DNA from: a virus
Strand: one strand, 5' to 3'
Virus record (IMG/VR): IMGVR_UViG_3300030107_000659
Span: 1-21,838 of that record
DNA: 21,838 bases
Each line of letters starts with the position of its first letter. Position 1 is the stretch's first letter. The notes beneath the pieces are model-generated. The model did no database searches and had not been told where the DNA came from. It worked only from the letters and a program-made list of their open reading frames with translations. Both the position numbers and the translations under genes were made by a program. Of this stretch, positions 13,475-21,838 are shown piece by piece.

Positions 13475-16426
13475 ATGGCAACAACATTCGTAGATTATAC
13501 GGGGAATGGATCTGCAACCAAAACTTTCTCATTCCCTTCTTTTGTTGAAACTGATATCAAAGTAGAAGTAGGTGGTGTACTTAAATCTGCTGGTACACAT
13601 TATAATATAACTGGCTATACAACTACTGGAGGAGGTAATGTAGTATTTACTTCTGGTAATATACCATCTAGTCCTACTACTATAAGAATATATCGTGATA
13701 CAGATGTAGATAATGCTAAGGCAACCTACACAGCTGGTTCATCAGTTAAAGCAGGAGACTTAAATAATAATCAAAAACAAGTTTTATATTCTGTACAAGA
13801 AAGACAGAATCAAACTATAACTACAACTGATATTAAAGATGGTGCAGTTACTACAGCTAAATTAGCTGATGAATCAGTTACTTCTGCTAAGATAGAAAAT
13901 GCTACTATTACAGCTGCTGATATAGCTGCTGATACTATTCTAACAACTAACTTAGCAAATAACTCTATTACTTCTGCTAAAATAGTTGATGGTACTATTG
14001 CATCAGGTGACTTAGGTACTGACTCAGTTATAACAGCTAAGATAGCAGATGATGCTGTCACCTATGGTAAGATACAAAATGTTACGGCATCTGATCGAGT
14101 ACTAGGTAGACAAACAGCTGGTGCTGGTATAGTAGAAGAACTAACACCTGCTAATATCAGAAGCATGATTAATGTTGAAGATGGTTCAACAGGTGATCAA
14201 ACAGCTACAGAAATCAAAACTTTATATGAAAGTAATAGTAATACTAATGCTTATATTGATACTCATAACTCTTTAGTAGGTGGTATAACAGCTACTGCTA
14301 CTGAATTAAATAAAGTTGATGGTTATACTGGATCTACAGCTAACCTAAATATTGTAGATGGTATGTCGAAGGCTACATCTTTGACATCTAATAGTGATAC
14401 AGAGTATCCTACTTCTAAAGCTGTAGCAGATTATGTAGGTAATACTATAGCCCCTTTAGGTGGTTTTGAAGTAATAGCTGATGAAGTAAGCTTCCCTAAT
14501 ACAATACCAGCAGCAGGTGTTGTTATATCAATCAGTGATGCTGGTGGTGTAGTGATAAATGGATCTGGTGTAAGTACTTCTGGTACTACACTAGGTAGTT
14601 CTACTGTAACTATTAATGGTTTTCCATCTAGTTTATATGGTGAAACATTAGTAGCTGGTGTAGCTTTAATGGTTAGCTCTACTGGAGCAAGTAATACATA
14701 TAATTATCATAAAATATTAGCAAAAGAAGGTGATGTTAAACAGTTATCTGATGATATTAATGACTTTAACTCTAGATATCGTATAGCATCTTCTGCTCCA
14801 TCTAGTTCATTAGATGATGGAGACTTATGGTTTAATACTACATCTAATAAGATGAAGGTGTATAATGCATCTGGATCATCTTGGGATGATGTAGCGGCTC
14901 CAGGAAACTTCTTTATTAACACTTTATCCAGTTCATCAGGTACTCCTGGTACTGGAGGTAGTGCTACATTCAATGGATCAGCTAATCAATTTACTTTATC
15001 TAATCCTCCAAACCAAGGAGCAGCACAGGTTCTTGCTTCTATTAATGGAGTCATCCAGAAACCTAACTCTGGAACCTCAGTTCCTAGCGAAGGATTTGCC
15101 ATTGTTAGTAATGATATTGTCTTTAGTACTGCTCCTGCTAGCGGGGCTGATTTCTTTATCATCACCATCGGAAACTCAGTAAATATTGGTACACCAAGTA
15201 ACAATACAGTTACATCAGCTATTATTGTTGATGGAGCTATAATGAATGTTGATGTTAATACTAATGCAGCAATAGCTGGTAGTAAATTAGCAGATGATTC
15301 AATTGCTGAAGTTAAATTAGATATACATAATGCTCCATCTGGTACAGATAAATACCTTAAGTATACTGCTAATGGTATGGAATGGGCTGTAGATAATAAT
15401 ACAGTTTATACACACCCTAATCATAGCGGAGAAGTCACGTCTACAGGCGATGGTGCTACTGTTATTGCTAGTAATATAGTAGATGAAGATAACTTAAAGA
15501 TCAGTAATGCTGGTTCAGATGGTCAGTATCTACAGAAACAATCAGGTAATACTGGTGGTTTAACATGGGCAAGTGTGTCTCAGACTGATACTACTTATAG
15601 TATCTCATGTGAGGATGGTGATAACACTGATGAAGAGAAAATAAGACTTACTGCTGGTGGTAGTGGTAGTGGAACAGATGATGTAGTATTAGAAGCTGGA
15701 ACTGGTTTATCTATAGCTAGATCTGGAGATAAGATTACTTATACTAATACTGTAACTAATACTAATACTCAACTAACAGAAGAAGAAGTAGAAGATTTTG
15801 TTGGTGGTATGGTAACTGGTAATACTGAAACAGGTATTACAGTAACTTATGAAGATTCTGATGGTACATTAGATTTCGTAGTAGCAAGTCAAACAGATAA
15901 TAATTTCACTAATACTCTTAAAACAAAGTTAGATGGTATTGCAGCTTCTGCTAATAACTATGTACACCCTAACCATAGTGGAGAGGTTACATCTACAGCT
16001 GACGGTGCTACAGTTATAGCAAGTGATATAGTAGATGAGGATAATTTAAAGATAAGTAATGCTGGATCTAATGGACAATTCCTACAGAAACAGTCTGGTA
16101 ATACAGGTGGTCTTACATGGGCTACAGTTGCTGGTACTATTACAGCATTAAATAATCAAGCTGCTAATAGATTAACAACTATTGGTTCAACAACAACAGA
16201 ACTAGATGGTGAAGCTAATCTAACATTTGATGGTACTACTTTAGCAGTTACTGGTAATCAAACAGTTACTAAAGAAGTACAAGCTCAAGGTTATGAATGT
16301 CCTGCAGCTATATCAGCAGATTGGTCTATTGGAAGTAATAATAATGCATTCTTCCCAGGTCCAATGACAGTAAACAGTGGCGTTACCGTTACGGTTCCGT
16401 CTGGTAGCACATTAACGGTGGTTTAA
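13475..16426 (+). CDS. gp17: Tail fibre protein with T7 gp17 anchor domain
   Basis: The 983-residue trimeric-type fibre begins with the T7 gp17 N-terminal domain that fixes fibres to the tail (about 1-115: FVDYTGNGSATKTFSFP, then TIRIYRDT, then KAGDLNNNQKQVLYSVQE). Residues about 120-205 are degenerate stem repeats (LADESVTSAKI, VDGTIASGDL, IADDAVTYGKI). Next come SRYRIASSAPSSSLDDGDLW (434-453), the marine-phage module LASINGVIQKPNSGTSVPSE (about 518-537), and a duplicated 53-residue unit at 647-699 and 831-883. The C-terminus (VTVTVPSGSTLTVV) is a common end of marine phage fibres. No depolymerase or chaperone motif is seen. It binds the host surface, receptor unknown. The part between about 15000 and 15180 is more GC-rich than its flanks. 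Confidence 0.92.
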   Translation: MATTFVDYTGNGSATKTFSFPSFVETDIKVEVGGVLKSAGTHYNITGYTTTGGGNVVFTSGNIPSSPTTIRIYRDTDVDNAKATYTAGSSVKAGDLNNNQKQVLYSVQERQNQTITTTDIKDGAVTTAKLADESVTSAKIENATITAADIAADTILTTNLANNSITSAKIVDGTIASGDLGTDSVITAKIADDAVTYGKIQNVTASDRVLGRQTAGAGIVEELTPANIRSMINVEDGSTGDQTATEIKTLYESNSNTNAYIDTHNSLVGGITATATELNKVDGYTGSTANLNIVDGMSKATSLTSNSDTEYPTSKAVADYVGNTIAPLGGFEVIADEVSFPNTIPAAGVVISISDAGGVVINGSGVSTSGTTLGSSTVTINGFPSSLYGETLVAGVALMVSSTGASNTYNYHKILAKEGDVKQLSDDINDFNSRYRIASSAPSSSLDDGDLWFNTTSNKMKVYNASGSSWDDVAAPGNFFINTLSSSSGTPGTGGSATFNGSANQFTLSNPPNQGAAQVLASINGVIQKPNSGTSVPSEGFAIVSNDIVFSTAPASGADFFIITIGNSVNIGTPSNNTVTSAIIVDGAIMNVDVNTNAAIAGSKLADDSIAEVKLDIHNAPSGTDKYLKYTANGMEWAVDNNTVYTHPNHSGEVTSTGDGATVIASNIVDEDNLKISNAGSDGQYLQKQSGNTGGLTWASVSQTDTTYSISCEDGDNTDEEKIRLTAGGSGSGTDDVVLEAGTGLSIARSGDKITYTNTVTNTNTQLTEEEVEDFVGGMVTGNTETGITVTYEDSDGTLDFVVASQTDNNFTNTLKTKLDGIAASANNYVHPNHSGEVTSTADGATVIASDIVDEDNLKISNAGSNGQFLQKQSGNTGGLTWATVAGTITALNNQAANRLTTIGSTTTELDGEANLTFDGTTLAVTGNQTVTKEVQAQGYECPAAISADWSIGSNNNAFFPGPMTVNSGVTVTVPSGSTLTVV
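15413..15571 (+). repeat. Direct repeat copy 1 in gp17 (53 codons)
   Basis: It encodes HPNHSGEVTSTGDGATVIAS through GGLTWA, residues 647-699. Compared with copy 2 at 15965-16123 it has the same length with no gap, 49 of 53 identical residues, and about 28 base differences in 159 by hand count, mostly synonymous. Confidence 0.95.
15965..16123 (+). repeat. Direct repeat copy 2 in gp17 (53 codons)
   Basis: It encodes HPNHSGEVTSTADGATVIAS through GGLTWA, residues 831-883. Amino-acid differences from copy 1 are Gly/Ala, Asn/Asp, Asp/Asn and Tyr/Phe. The two copies are separated by a 131-codon segment containing LTEEEVEDFVGGMVTGNTET. Confidence 0.95.
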
Positions 16427-16428
16427 TT

Positions 16429-17403
16429 ATGGCAATCAAATTACAAGGCACAAATAGTGCAGCAGCTCCAGGCTTAACTAATGACGGTGGTGATGGAGTA
16501 GTAGTAGGAACAGATAGTGTAGATATAAGTACAGCAGGTACTAGTAGAGTTAAAGTAGATAGTGCAGGTAAGGTTGGAATAGGTGAATCAAGTCCAGATG
16601 AACTTCTCCATCTAAGTGCTAATAATACGGGTGTATCTGCCAATGCTTTTACATCAGCAGGTAATACTATTAGGCTCACTGATACTGATACAAGTGTAAC
16701 AAGTAATCAGCCAGGTGGAACTATTGAGTGGGAAACTTTAGATTCAAGTAATACTGGTGTTAATGCTTATATTGCAACCAAAAATTCAGGAACTGGTTAT
16801 GGTTCTATGCATTTTGGAACTGGTAATGCATCAACACTAGCAGAACGTATGTCCATCCATACTGATGGAAATGTAACAATCGCTGACGGCGATCTAGTAA
16901 TAGGAACCTCTGGTCACGGTATTGACTTTAGTGCTCAGACTGCTACATCTGCTAGTGGTGCTTCAACTACTAGTGAGCTTTTGGACCACTATGAAGAGGG
17001 GACTTTCACTCCATACATTAGAACATCAGGAGATAGTACTGAACCAAGTTATGCAGGTCAAGTGGGTATATATTCAAGAGTCGGTGATATAGTTCAATTT
17101 TCGATTTGGGTTAAAGCTAACAGTACTATAGCCTCATATAGTGGGTCTGTTTGGGTCGCTGGTTTACCTTTTACTGCTCAAAGCATGACAGGAGGTTGGC
17201 AGGGTAGTACAGTATTACAATACTACCATAATCTAGATAATATTAATACATCTGCAACTAGCATAGCAGCTATTGGTCCAAATAGTGGTGGTACAGTTGT
17301 TTCTTTTAATTGGCTTTCAGCAGGTGCTTGGCAAGCAGCATTAGGTGGTAATTCTATTAAAGCTAACACAGAATTCATACTTGGAGGTACTTATAAAGCA
17401 TAA
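16429..17403 (+). CDS. Accessory tail fibre / adhesin with ELLDxYEEGTFTP module
   Basis: This 324-residue protein starts two bases after the gp17 stop, with no Shine-Dalgarno, so it is probably translated by coupling. The N-terminus (MAIKLQGTNSAAAPGL) is a short Gly/Ala-rich head. Residues 30-55 (DSVDISTAGTSRVKVDSAGK) and 140-165 (MSIHTDGNVTIADGDLVIGT) are beta-stem repeats of the kind found in trimeric marine phage fibres. The C-terminal domain from 184 opens with LLDHYEEGTFTPY and continues as alternating beta strands, with Tyr/Ser-rich loops and GNSIKANTEFILGGTYKA at the end. The same module recurs in the 366-residue protein at 20416. A host-recognition role is inferred from domain type and position. 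The T7 anchor domain is absent, so it must attach through another protein. Confidence 0.78.
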   Translation: MAIKLQGTNSAAAPGLTNDGGDGVVVGTDSVDISTAGTSRVKVDSAGKVGIGESSPDELLHLSANNTGVSANAFTSAGNTIRLTDTDTSVTSNQPGGTIEWETLDSSNTGVNAYIATKNSGTGYGSMHFGTGNASTLAERMSIHTDGNVTIADGDLVIGTSGHGIDFSAQTATSASGASTTSELLDHYEEGTFTPYIRTSGDSTEPSYAGQVGIYSRVGDIVQFSIWVKANSTIASYSGSVWVAGLPFTAQSMTGGWQGSTVLQYYHNLDNINTSATSIAAIGPNSGGTVVSFNWLSAGAWQAALGGNSIKANTEFILGGTYKA

Positions 17404-18413
17404 TGACATTAAAATTAAATGGTAGCTCATCGGGTCACGTCAACCTAGATGCAAAAGCTGCGGCAGCCAGTAACACACTGACGCTGCCAGATACGGCGAA
17501 TGGTGAATTAGTAGCAGCTGATAGTTCAGGGCATATTAATTTAGCAGATGATAAAGAGATAAAATTAGGTACTGGTGGAGATTTAAAGATTTATCATAAG
17601 AGTTCTGATAATGGTAATTATATAGAATGCGAAAATAGTAGAACTTTATATTATCAATCAGATAATCACTTCATGTTAGATGAAGCTGGGAATGAATATA
17701 TAATCAAGGGTATTGCTAATGGAGCCGTAGAACTTTATCACAATAACACTAAAACTGTTGAAACGCTCGCAGCTGGTGCCAAAGTAAATGTTGCTACTGC
17801 AGCAACAGCAGAGTTTGGAATACAAGCAGCGTCTAGTCAAAATGCTGAACTTTGGTTATTATCTGATGCTGGTAATCAGTACGGAGATAAAGTAAGACTT
17901 CTTCAGGATGATGGGACTTTAAGTATTGACTTTTATACAGCATCTAATACTTGGACAACTGCTTCAAAATTTACATCTAGTGGGTATGTAACTACACCAT
18001 TAAATCCTGGATTTCATTATAAGCAATATGACAACGCTAGTACTAATGCCGCAATGAATGCTGCTGGAGTGGTTTTATTGTCCGTCAATCTTCATAATAT
18101 AGGAAATAATTATGATACTTCAAATGGTAGATTTACAGCCCCTGTAGCAGGTACTTATTTCTTCTACTTCAATGCATTAATAGATAATAATACTGCGACA
18201 GGTCATCATTATATTGTATTACAGAAGAATGGTAGTGGATATACAACTCTATGTTATACCAGACATAACTTTGCTACTAGTAATGGTGAATACACTGGGA
18301 TGTCTGGTTCAGCAGTTATAAATTTAGCTGTGTCTGATTATGTTACATTTTATTCTTCAGGTGGAATACATAATGGTGGTGAAACTAATGGTGGAGGCTT
18401 CTTATTAGGTTAA
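17403..18413 (+). CDS. Accessory tail protein with C-terminal C1q/TNF-like head
   Basis: The 336-residue protein overlaps the previous stop by one base (TAATG). Residues 1-45 (LNGSSSGHVNLDAKAAAASN, then LTLPDT) form a compact head seen in many marine phage tail proteins, encoded by markedly GC-richer DNA than the rest. Residues about 50-130 are a stem of the DLKIYHKSSDN...NGAVELYHNNTKTVET kind. From about 201 (FHYKQYDNAS) to the end is a C1q-like beta sandwich with the hallmark NGRFTAPVAGTYFFYFNALI (about 240-259), then LQKNGSGYTT, the strand SAVINLAVSDYVTFY and the closing GGGFLLG. C1q/TNF domains trimerise and bind ligands, so this is a good candidate receptor-binding tip. Ligand unknown. 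Confidence 0.82.
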   Translation: MTLKLNGSSSGHVNLDAKAAAASNTLTLPDTANGELVAADSSGHINLADDKEIKLGTGGDLKIYHKSSDNGNYIECENSRTLYYQSDNHFMLDEAGNEYIIKGIANGAVELYHNNTKTVETLAAGAKVNVATAATAEFGIQAASSQNAELWLLSDAGNQYGDKVRLLQDDGTLSIDFYTASNTWTTASKFTSSGYVTTPLNPGFHYKQYDNASTNAAMNAAGVVLLSVNLHNIGNNYDTSNGRFTAPVAGTYFFYFNALIDNNTATGHHYIVLQKNGSGYTTLCYTRHNFATSNGEYTGMSGSAVINLAVSDYVTFYSSGGIHNGGETNGGGFLLG

Positions 18414-18416
18414 ATT

Positions 18417-18686
18417 ATGGCAAATTACACAATTACTCTGACAGACACAGAAACAAAGTCTCTTGAATATGTAGCAGAAAGCAATCAAACTTGGATTGAT
18501 AATGCTGCTAAAAATCGAGCACGTATTGCTAAAGATGAGATTATCTCTTTAAATACAGCACATTGCAATAAAAATGGAGTTGCTATTGCTGTTGGTGAAG
18601 ATGCTCAAGTTACACAAGCATATACGCTTGGTGTTGTTAAAACAGCAACAGCTAGAAAAGAAGAATATTCTGGTCCTCCTGAATAA
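18417..18686 (+). CDS. Small conserved-type hypothetical protein (89 residues)
   Basis: ATG 18417 lies three bases after the previous stop. The product starts with a beta-like MANYTITLTDTETKSLEYVA, followed by a helix around WIDNAAKNRARIAKDEIISL and a more polar end (ARKEEYSGPPE). It is a small soluble protein without signal or membrane segment and with a single Cys. I recall similarly built short proteins next to cyanophage tail-fibre genes but know no function. Placement between two fibre-like genes makes a fibre assembly factor or a small baseplate/tip component plausible, which is inference only. Confidence 0.7.
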   Translation: MANYTITLTDTETKSLEYVAESNQTWIDNAAKNRARIAKDEIISLNTAHCNKNGVAIAVGEDAQVTQAYTLGVVKTATARKEEYSGPPE

Positions 18687-18704
18687 ACCAATGAGGACAC
18701 AATT

Positions 18705-19895
18705 ATGAGTAGATTAAAAACGGATGCTATCCGTAATACAAGTGCCTCGGCGGATGCTTTAACATTCGATACGAATGGGCACGTTACAGCTCCTGGTAAC
18801 TTAACAGTTAGTGGGACTACGACAATTAGTGGTTATCACCCAACTACTAGTAGATCGAATAAAAATTTGATAATAAATGGTGCGATGAATGTTGCTCAAA
18901 GAGGCACTTCGGAGAATACTACAACTGGTATGTACACTGTAGACAGATTTAGAGTTGAAGCAAGCGGTCATGATCAAAGTCCAGATCAAGCTCAACACGC
19001 TTTAACTTCTTCTGATACTGGTCCTTGGGAAAAGGGCTTTAGGTCTTCATGGCTTATAACAAATGGTAATCAAACTAGCGGAGCTGGAGCTGCTGATTCT
19101 CTATATTTAGATTATCGACTTGAAGCGCAAGACCTAGCTAATAGTGGTTGGAATTATAATTCTACGTCTAGTAAAATGACGTTATCATTCTGGGCAAAAT
19201 CTAGCGTTGCTCAGACATTTAGTTTTTGGATATGGACCGCTGATGGAACTTCGCAAGGTTGGTTTACGACTTATACTTTGGCTGCAAATACTTGGAAGAA
19301 AATAACTATTACTTTGCCTGGTGCTGCTAATTTAACCTTTGATAATAATGCCAATATTGGCTTCCAACTAGGTTGGGACTTATTCATGGGTACTGACCAC
19401 ACAAATGCCAGTGCAACAGTTGATCAATGGATTAATTGGTCAGGTGCTAAACGAGCTGTTGGTGGTTCTACTTGGTGGACAACTAATGATGCAACATTTG
19501 AAATGACAGGTGTTCAATTAGAAGTAGGAGATACAGCCACTGACTTCGAGCACAGGAGTTACGGAGATGAATTAACTAGGTGTCAAAGGTATCTAGAAAA
19601 GATTCAAATACATGCCAGTGAGATATTTATGATTGGTACTAATCAATGGGGGAGTCGTACTCCATTAATATTACCTTTTAAAAGTCAAAAAAGAGCAGTA
19701 CCTAGCTGCACTATTGATGCTAGTAGTTTTGATCGTTATGCAATTGAAGATGGTTCTAACGGTACAGTTACAGGAACAGCAGCAGCATACACAACCGATG
19801 GTATGGCAGTTACTTTTGCTGCCTTAGATAATTCGTCTTTATACTGGGCTAATAAAACTGCCACTGGTTATGTACTCGGAGATGCAGAATTATGA
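18705..19895 (+). CDS. Accessory tail fibre with carbohydrate-binding-like jelly roll
   Basis: The 396-residue protein has GAGGA at 18693-18697, seven bases before ATG 18705, one of the few good ribosome sites here. Residues 1-45 form a short head (SRLKTDAIRNTSASADALTF, then LTVSGTTTISG). From about 52 comes NKNLIINGAMNVAQRGT and TVDRFRVEA, the start of a widespread cyanophage tail domain. A CBM-like sandwich follows (LTISFW-type strand KMTLSFWAKSSVAQTFSFWI at about 157-176, then TWKKITITLPG). The hallmark end TGVQLEVGDTATDFEHRSYG lies at about 268-287, followed by DELTRCQRYLEK and a last beta domain. The jelly roll suggests binding of cell-surface sugars. The gene ends in an ATGA overlap with the next one. 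Confidence 0.82.
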   Translation: MSRLKTDAIRNTSASADALTFDTNGHVTAPGNLTVSGTTTISGYHPTTSRSNKNLIINGAMNVAQRGTSENTTTGMYTVDRFRVEASGHDQSPDQAQHALTSSDTGPWEKGFRSSWLITNGNQTSGAGAADSLYLDYRLEAQDLANSGWNYNSTSSKMTLSFWAKSSVAQTFSFWIWTADGTSQGWFTTYTLAANTWKKITITLPGAANLTFDNNANIGFQLGWDLFMGTDHTNASATVDQWINWSGAKRAVGGSTWWTTNDATFEMTGVQLEVGDTATDFEHRSYGDELTRCQRYLEKIQIHASEIFMIGTNQWGSRTPLILPFKSQKRAVPSCTIDASSFDRYAIEDGSNGTVTGTAAAYTTDGMAVTFAALDNSSLYWANKTATGYVLGDAEL

Positions 19896-20059
19896 TTCCT
19901 TATAAATTATTTCCAAAAGATGAAAGGACAAACAAGGATCAACCTTTTATTCTTAGAAAAATAGATAATGCTTCTATACCTACAGATCCAAATAATAGAG
20001 ATTATCAAGACTATCTAGAATGGGTAGCAGAAGGTAACACAGCGGAGGCTGCAGATTAG
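19892..20059 (+). CDS. 55-residue protein with YxxWVAEGNT motif
   Basis: ATG 19892 overlaps the stop of the preceding fibre gene (ATGA). The 55-residue product begins MIPYKLFPKDERTNK, has a charged middle (FILRKIDNASIPTDPNNRDY) and ends DYLEWVAEGNTAEAAD. The ending resembles the Y-x2-W-x-AEGN-T-x-E-x-AD tail seen in many small phage tail-fibre-associated proteins and fibre assembly chaperones. Direct coupling to the fibre gene supports a partner role such as chaperone or attachment peptide, but I cannot name a family. Codon use and overlap make it a real gene. Confidence 0.68.
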   Translation: MIPYKLFPKDERTNKDQPFILRKIDNASIPTDPNNRDYQDYLEWVAEGNTAEAAD

Positions 20060-20097
20060 ACCGTTAGCAAGTCTCTAAACTACGCCATAAACCTATT

Positions 20098-20112
20098 ATA
20101 TTCGGAGAATAT
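20098..20112 (+). promoter_or_regulatory. Hairpin presenting the ribosome site of the next gene
   Basis: The 59-base gap 20060-20118 ends with the perfect inverted repeat ATATTC-GGA-GAATAT. The GGAG ribosome-site core (20104-20107) is the loop plus the first pairing base, 11 bases before ATG 20119. An AT-rich hairpin here could hold or expose the site. No promoter with sensible spacing is visible in the gap. Confidence 0.35.
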
Positions 20113-20118
20113 TCTTAA

Positions 20119-20406
20119 ATGGCCTTAACAGAGTCACAGGAGAACGATAAGATTGAAGTGGTGAACAGATGGAATGTCCAGGTGCGCACTGCTACAATAA
20201 TAAAAAAAGACGGAAAGGAGCTGACACGTTCCTTCCATAGGAAAGTATTAACACCTGGAACATTAGATGCTAGTGATAATCTAGTAGAGACAAATCTCAG
20301 TTCTGAGGATGCAGATGTGAAGGCTATCGCAGAAGCTGCGTGGACTACACAGGTAAAAGCAGACTATAAAGCTTTCTTAATTGCAAACAAATCTAACACT
20401 CCATAA
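20119..20406 (+). CDS. Small hypothetical protein (95 residues) in fibre cluster
   Basis: The 95-residue product starts MALTESQENDKIEVVNRWNV, followed by beta strands (VQVRTATIIKKDGKELTRSF), a middle HRKVLTPGTLDASDNLVETN, and a C-terminal helix (DVKAIAEAAWTTQVKADYKA). It has no signal peptide, membrane segment or catalytic pattern. Short proteins of this build accompany tail genes in marine cyanophages as I remember them, without known function. The gene stands between the 55-residue protein and the next fibre-like gene. Its stop codon overlaps the strong ribosome site of that gene. Confidence 0.72.
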   Translation: MALTESQENDKIEVVNRWNVQVRTATIIKKDGKELTRSFHRKVLTPGTLDASDNLVETNLSSEDADVKAIAEAAWTTQVKADYKAFLIANKSNTP

Positions 20407-20415
20407 GGAGGGTAA
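20404..20415 (+). promoter_or_regulatory. Unusually strong ribosome binding site
   Basis: AAGGAGG (20405-20411) is a perfect Shine-Dalgarno core, overlapping the preceding stop and four bases before ATG 20416. Most genes in this window have weak or no such site, so the following fibre-like protein may be made at a higher rate. Confidence 0.8.
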
Positions 20416-21516
20416 ATGGGATTAACACAAGTTAGCACCGCAGGTGTTAAAGACGATGCAGTAACGGCTGGTAAGATACCAGCCAATGCTGTAGGAGCTA
20501 GTGAACTAGCAGACAACGCTGTTGATACAGCAGCTATAGCAGATGATGCAGTAACAGCAGATAAACTAGCTAATGCAATTAATACAGATATTGCAGCAAA
20601 AACAGTATTAACAGGAAGTACAAATAATACAGTTGCAACAGTTACAGGTGCAAATGCTATTCAAGGTGAGGCGAATCTTACTTTTGATGGAGATGGACTT
20701 GCGGTCAGTGCTAAATTACAAGTTACACACGATAATTGGGATACTGCAAGAGTAGAGAATACAAATGCAGATGCCAATGGTGCTTATCTTGATTTAGTAA
20801 AAAATTCAGCATCTCCCGCTGATGGAGACGAAACAGGAGTAATCAGATTTAGAGCTGATGATGACGCAGGAAATGAACATACTTTTGCAGTAATTCGAGG
20901 TACATCTCCTGATGTTAGTAATGGTGCAGAAAATGGTCAAATTGAGTTCCAGACTTCAAGTGGAGGAACTGTTGCAGAACGACTCAGAATAACGCAATCA
21001 GGGAATCTAAAAATATTAGACGGTGACTTACAAATAAATACTGCTGGACATGGTATTGATTTCAGTACTCATGGTAATGCAGGAGGAATGACAGCTGAGC
21101 TCTTAGACGATTATGAAGAAGGAAATTTCACGCCATCAGTTTCTGGAAGTTCTGGAACAGGAACACCTGCTTATTCTGCTCAACATGGTAAGTATACAAA
21201 AGTAGGTAGACTAGTTAGTGTTGTATTTGACCTCAATGTTTCTTCCTGGTCAGGTGCAAGTGGTAGTCTACAAGTATTACTACCGTTTGCTAATGGATCA
21301 TTTGCAGCAGGTACATCTTGGTATTATTCACCTGTTTGGCACTCTATAGACACCAACTTTATAGGTTCCACTGGTAATTACCGTTCAGGATATATGGGTC
21401 AGAGTTCAACTGCTTTACTACCAAGAATAATCGGCGATACAAATAATGATGCTGGAATGAATGTTAACACCACAGGTCGTATTGCTGGTTCAATGACTTA
21501 TATTACAGATTCATAG
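20416..21516 (+). CDS. Accessory tail fibre / adhesin, second ELLDxYEEGxFTP protein
   Basis: This 366-residue protein begins with stem repeats like those of gp17 (TAGVKDDAVTAGKIPANAVG, NAVDTAAIADDAVTADKLA, about 8-55). ANAIQGEANLTFDGDGLAVS (about 77-96) has its counterpart in gp17 near residues 910-927. Residues about 98-185 form a beta domain (HDNWDTARVEN...GVIRFRADDDAGNEHTFAVI). From about 190 (ERLRITQSGNLKILDGDLQI) it parallels the 324-residue protein at 16429, including GHGIDFS and, from 228, ELLDDYEEGNFTP. The C-terminal half differs strongly from that paralogue (SWYYSPVWHSIDTN, GSMTYITDS), as expected for a receptor-binding tip. It lacks the T7 anchor domain. Translation is driven by a perfect Shine-Dalgarno. 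Confidence 0.78.
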   Translation: MGLTQVSTAGVKDDAVTAGKIPANAVGASELADNAVDTAAIADDAVTADKLANAINTDIAAKTVLTGSTNNTVATVTGANAIQGEANLTFDGDGLAVSAKLQVTHDNWDTARVENTNADANGAYLDLVKNSASPADGDETGVIRFRADDDAGNEHTFAVIRGTSPDVSNGAENGQIEFQTSSGGTVAERLRITQSGNLKILDGDLQINTAGHGIDFSTHGNAGGMTAELLDDYEEGNFTPSVSGSSGTGTPAYSAQHGKYTKVGRLVSVVFDLNVSSWSGASGSLQVLLPFANGSFAAGTSWYYSPVWHSIDTNFIGSTGNYRSGYMGQSSTALLPRIIGDTNNDAGMNVNTTGRIAGSMTYITDS

Positions 21517-21525
21517 ACCGCTAAA

Positions 21526-21838
21526 ATGTCAATCCCTATTCCCTCTGCTAACCTCCCTAAGCCCTTAGACCTGCCTAGAATCGATTTTAAGCCACCTTCA
21601 GCACGTATACCATCATATCGCCCTATGGTGGTCCCTCCGGCTGATCTAGAGCCTCCTGAGGACGTTGAGGCAGAGGAAAAGGAAACAACTGAAACACCTG
21701 AACCACCTACTTTAAAGATTCCAGTTATTGATATTCAAATGCCAATACCTGAAACTGCTGTGGTAGTGACTGCTGTAACAACAGCTGTTATTGCAGTTAC
21801 AACTACAACTGTTACACAATCTTTATTTGAACCGATCA
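21526..21838 (+). CDS. Pro-rich protein with hydrophobic segment, partial (3' end outside window)
   Basis: ATG 21526 lies nine bases after the previous stop, without a Shine-Dalgarno; 104 codons are visible and the frame is open at the right edge. The N-terminus is strongly Pro-rich (MSIPIPSANLPKPLDLPRID, then SYRPMVVPPADLEPPEDVE), followed by an acidic Glu/Thr segment. A second IPVIDIQMPIP stretch leads into a hydrophobic, Val/Ala/Thr-rich helix at about 81-96 (AVVVTAVTTAVIAVTT). I recall similarly built proteins in marine cyanophages annotated only as structural or hypothetical. The layout suggests a virion or membrane-associated protein; a holin is possible but unsupported. The start of the gene is GC-rich compared with most of the window. 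Confidence 0.75.
   Translation, partial: MSIPIPSANLPKPLDLPRIDFKPPSARIPSYRPMVVPPADLEPPEDVEAEEKETTETPEPPTLKIPVIDIQMPIPETAVVVTAVTTAVIAVTTTTVTQSLFEPI

Follow-up and report, generated by a model that had tools for sequence, protein, structure and literature searches.

The window, by which we mean the whole stretch of 21,838 bases analysed here (out of a virus record of 28,381 bases), encodes a gp16 with 46% full-length identity to its counterpart in cyanophage P-SSP7, and its genes between capsid and terminase are arranged as in P-SSP7. Judged by these relationships, the window comes from a P-SSP7-like cyanopodovirus, a T7-like virus of marine picocyanobacteria. The anchored tail fibre gp17 (13475-16426, plus strand, 983 aa) carries a T7-type anchor at residues 3-128 (Pfam Phage_T7_tail, PF03906, E 8.6e-6, above the cut-off). 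It is 42% identical to P-SSP7 gp17 across 676 aa and matches the P-SCSP1u fibre (8i4m) with an E value of 2e-118. Within the gene, 185 bases are repeated (15407-15591 and 15959-16143, 79% identical).

Behind gp17 lie four complete, tightly packed genes, all on the plus strand: A324 (16429-17403, 324 aa), B336 (17403-18413, 336 aa), C396 (18705-19895, 396 aa) and D366 (20416-21516, 366 aa). The initial annotation had described four fibre-like reading frames here that lack the T7 anchor, and we found all four at their positions and lengths; a Pfam search for PF03906 matched gp17 and none of the four. C396 belongs to PHROG 4492, tail fiber (E 1e-45). Three small ORFs are interspersed among these genes, and the start of a conserved gene related to P-SSP7 gene 42 follows (21526-21838, plus strand), which closes the array in relatives. 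Arrays of this kind have been sequenced before. In P-SSP7, four genes with a tail fibre annotation come after gp17, one small ORF lying among them, and S-SBP1 has three such accessory genes and a small ORF, also annotated as tail fibre; thus, the adhesin array itself is known sequence.

Slot tags and exchangeable heads

We compared the ORFs from gp16 to the conserved downstream gene in relatives from IMG/VR and in isolates. Many of these contigs are fragments. The profiles of the tags and of the cap described below were seeded from array loci, and presence of either means similarity to those seeds. Intact arrays occur in dozens of relatives, which speaks against the genes being inactive there. 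Each accessory protein opens with a tag of about 20-35 residues, of which there are four kinds: T1, such as MPITLNGSGTVSGIS, T2, such as MTIKLVGSSSGSVSLDAPAST, T3, such as MSTLKVDGIRSNSATSDAITL, and T4, such as MALTQVSTGGIKDGQ. In the window, T1 covers residues ~1-25 of A324, T2 residues ~1-35 of B336, T3 residues ~1-31 of C396 and T4 residues ~1-27 of D366. The four proteins had been thought to have similar short N-terminal heads, and a single N-terminal head common to all is ruled out: the tags differ from each other and are specific to their position. The order T1-T2-T3-T4 was kept in 123 of 124 ordered pairs from 40 arrays, split at caps, and the sole exception lies in a contig (L202) without a cyanopodovirus array.

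The C-terminal heads, with which the initial annotation distinguished the four proteins, were recognised as described there. A324 and D366 share a YEEG (ELLDxYEEG) module with 42% identity over 150 residues (E 4e-24); it starts at residue ~183 of A324, after a stem, and at residue ~228 of D366, after gp17-like repeats. B336 ends, behind its stem, in a C1q head at residues 221-321 (PF00386, 43.3 bits against a curated cut-off of 23.7, E 5e-11), which a sequence search also matched to C1q in the PDB (E 1.7e-11). The model of the C396 head (residues ~80-281) was matched by Foldseek to CBM4/11/16 modules with a best E value of 1.7e-5, and it is confident in the matched head core and of low confidence at both ends. 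The predicted head has the beta-sandwich fold of a CBM and is putatively carbohydrate-binding. The recognised heads are adhesion-type folds, C1q in B336 and CBM4-like in C396. Placement of the YEEG head by fold failed, as its model was too poor (pLDDT 60) and the best matches, to parts of phage tailspikes or receptor-binding proteins, reached E 1.6e-3 or worse.

Tags and heads have diverged to very different degrees. Between P-SSP7-like contigs, DNA identity over the 66 bases at the start of each gene has a median of 94-95%, against 61-65% for the head-coding parts. The P-SSP7 head behind T1 has 81% identity, over 148 residues, with the head behind a T2 tag in L182, and identity is 77% between the T1 head of L184 and a T3 head of L183. 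Likewise, A324 and D366 in the window combine related heads with unrelated tags. As read from these alignments, heads have been swapped between slots while the tags stayed conserved. The earlier suggestion of interchangeable receptor-binding proteins is therefore well supported at the level of sequence, by near-identical heads behind different tags and by tags that are conserved while the heads diverge.

The cap at the fibre end and its link to the array

The last 48 residues of gp17 (16280-16423, plus strand) form what we call the cap, the proposed docking end, defined by a profile of 13 fibre ends. Its consensus in gp17 of array-bearing phages is ..TVTxNYTIxxNKNAxSAGPITINNGVTVTVxSGxTWTIV, and our search for a solved structure related to it found none. 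Among loci sampled by gp16, those with a cap had T1 in 14 of 15 cases and those lacking one in 0 of 23 (Fisher 1.6e-9); for T3 the counts were 11 of 15 and 0 of 23, respectively. Loci sampled by another gene gave T1 in 9 of 10 capped and 0 of 14 uncapped cases, or in 8 of 9 and 0 of 14 after removal of one duplicate contig (p 2e-5). Cap-query loci were left out of both cap-T1 associations and included in the order count above and in the T4-cap count below. The cap changed state about 10 times on the gp16 tree, and T1 followed in 8.6 of 9 independent pairs and never went against it (sign test, p 0.004). Where a later member of the chain of fibre proteins bears the cap in place of gp17, as in L019, L169 and L244, the array comes after that member.

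The cap is not sufficient for an array, because it is present in L078, which has none, and in further marine phages that lack a T1 array; these phages rule out the idea that every cap entails an array. A dependence of T4 on the cap is likewise ruled out, as T4 occurs in 3 of the 23 uncapped loci of the gp16 sample. Seven P-SSP7-like contigs (L181, L182, L183, L184, L186, L188 and L190) encode a mini-protein of 106-123 residues that consists of the T4 tag and a cap, and a second T1-T2-T3 set follows it, some of these sets ending at the contig end. Overall, T1 comes next in 11 of 11 T4-tagged proteins with a cap vs 0 of 22 without one. The pairing of cap and array is thus repeated on fibre-chain proteins and on the T4 mini-protein, which counts for a reading of the slots as based on the cap.

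The P-SSP7 locus (gp17, PSSP7_037, 038, 039 and 041) resembles that of the window in its place, in its capped gp17 and in its tags, which run T1, T2, T3, T3, but it has other heads, no T4 gene and another small ORF. P-SSP7 seems to have retained only the T3 gene of a second set. That the multi-receptor system of the initial annotation would serve several hosts is conjectural; P-SSP7, itself a carrier of such an array, is a phage of MED4 known for its narrow host range. In the literature that we searched, we found no description of the rule formed by tags, slots and cap. While the array was known before, the rule behind it (tags, order, head traffic, cap linkage, the mini-protein with its second set and the tie of s95 to YEEG heads) appears unreported.

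Small proteins between the adhesin genes

The small ORF s95 (20119-20406, plus strand) belongs to PHROG 6228 (E 3e-24). Of the loci searched, 19 encode a YEEG head, and s95 turned up in 18 of these and in 0 of the 235 others (p 1e-26); in the 19th, P-GSP1, it is present with 62% identity and had been missed by the ORF picker, which brings the count to 19 of 19. It adjoins the YEEG gene in S-CAM4, S-T4 and S-CBP3 too, the two also being neighbours in cyanomyoviruses, and relatives of s95 are also found in pelagiphages. This strict association suggests that s95 is likely a head-specific chaperone or partner of YEEG heads.

Behind the C1q gene lies s89 (18417-18686, plus strand). Its only relative among the compared loci (L119:843-1082) is also placed behind a C1q-like head, and with these two cases s89 is a possible partner of the C1q head. 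The third ORF, s55 (19892-20059, plus strand, 55 aa), overlaps the end of C396, and a similar gene of 71 aa occupies the same place in L055. Head-specific folding partners would be the simplest reading of the small ORFs, above all of s95. Many arrays contain a further family of small proteins (L003:21679-21969 and 55 relatives) that ends in ..DQLDxIYHSGIDAWKAxIKxxKDKYPKP. By analogy with s95 and the YEEG heads, this family perhaps helps the common MEVA-ending heads.

Proposed docking of the adhesins and comparison with known branched systems

We consider it probable that the accessory genes encode slot-tagged, interchangeable receptor-binding proteins that are plugged onto capped fibre ends and aided by head-specific helpers. 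The four proteins are likely virion adhesins, each made of a slot-specific short N-terminal tag, a stem and a head at the C-terminus that can be exchanged. T1, T2 and T3 would be the slots of the cap, which lies distally on the fibre and is carried by gp17 in the window and, in relatives, by the last protein of the fibre chain or by the small T4-tagged adaptor. The T1-T3 tags most likely dock at or beside the cap, which would give a fibre with several different heads; this docking is something that we infer from the gene data, because neighbouring genes also travel together. T4 would need no cap and probably starts a second, unanchored stalk, which in some relatives would bear its own cap at the end and carry a second set. 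Recombination would replace heads while the tags remain fixed, so that receptors can change without breaking assembly, and the small interleaved proteins, s95 for the YEEG head in particular, would serve as folding partners of particular heads. The comparison of loci itself shows the gene order, the conserved tags, the exchange of heads and the two linkages, of cap with array and of s95 with YEEG heads; virion incorporation, docking, receptor binding and the chaperone role are our interpretation of these data.

The main rival to this explanation is that the adhesins dock elsewhere, at the nozzle, the gp17 stem or the capsid, and that the cap end of gp17 and the array are merely neighbours swapped in one recombination event. 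The initial annotation had envisaged a branched tip, which the linkage of cap and array supports indirectly; yet cap and T1 are adjacent genes in nearly every case, and co-transfer alone could also yield that linkage. The T4 tags without a cap (3 of 23 loci; 22 proteins) make at least one accessory type independent of the cap, and the phages with a cap and no array fit such hitchhiking as well. On the other hand, T3 lies more than 1 kb from the cap, behind heads that recombine freely, and is nonetheless confined to capped loci in the gp16 sample, and the pairing recurs on the T4-tagged stalk of the mini-protein and on fibre proteins other than gp17. We regard this rival as rather unlikely.

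The array might also be a reserve, of which only one or two adhesins enter a virion, or donor sequence for recombination. Heads are clearly exchanged between slots and the short tags could act as common 5' homology, as this explanation would have it, but slot-specific tags would be superfluous for donor sequences, and the genes are intact and dense, keep their order and their distinct tags, and in some cases have a small partner gene of their own. In the general inspection of the window, neither an invertase nor an arrangement of template repeats stood out. A mere reserve is thus improbable. That the proteins are instead released during infection, for example as decoys or to act on surfaces, and are not part of the virion, we hold to be very improbable, given that the genes lie inside the late structural block, that their stems are common to fibres of other phages and that their presence tracks the form of the fibre end. 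In the literature that we searched, we found neither virion proteomics of P-SSP7-type accessory fibres nor a structure of the distal fibre, and cryo-EM of P-SCSP1u left the distal fibre unresolved (PMC10575957).

The proposed docking on capped ends would work like known branched systems, and the array differs from them in the linked element, the number of slots and the traffic of heads. In the anchor-branch systems of K1-5, KP32 and KP34, an anchored first protein is joined by further ones that begin with a short conserved peptide and whose heads are exchangeable (PMC6872550). The window likewise has an anchored first receptor-binding protein, gp17, and accessory proteins with short conserved N-terminal tags, known here from their sequences. 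However, the K1-5/KP32 type docks its further proteins on the N-terminal part of the anchor, by a T4gp10-like domain, whereas the element linked to the array in the window is the C-terminal cap; our sequence searches of Pfam, PHROGs and the PDB, which are less sensitive than the HHpred searches of PMC6872550, gave no match to a T4gp10-like domain. In contrast to the K1-5/KP32 type, the heads recognised here have adhesion folds that are not enzymatic, and six or more slots occur in some relatives. Heads move between slots in the cyanopodovirus arrays, which also sets these apart from the known branched systems.

In Ackermannviridae such as CBA120, a single branched tailspike complex unites as many as four distinct adhesins, each with a fixed role (PMC11721090). 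The presence of several different adhesins with fixed roles is a likeness to the window, while XD and TD docking domains, beta-helical enzymes and a myovirus particle are features of their own; sequence searches of Pfam, PHROGs and the PDB matched no window protein to a beta-helical enzymatic tailspike or to XD or TD domains. Other cyanopodoviruses (L019, L028, L098 and L010) have fibre chains of several proteins, in which the end of one protein is paired with the start of the next (DGGTF with IRIKR, LDFG with KLRRG, GKLIATI with DLGKIK). Like the window, they match a fibre end to the start of the following protein, but they look like single end-to-end chains, whereas in the window several heads stand behind one end.

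More tentatively, the cap may act as a hub on which three distinct trimeric adhesins sit simultaneously, the tag of each serving as its address, and the mini-adaptor of tag and cap may form a second hub with three more. With heads traded between the sockets, some marine podoviruses might then show six or more different receptor-binding heads.

Host recognition by T7-like viruses of Prochlorococcus and Synechococcus is poorly known. If the rule proposed here is true, the loosely annotated "tail fibre" genes of P-SSP7 would gain a function and PHROG 6228 a likely role, and a genome would tell how many heads its virus bears and of which kind.
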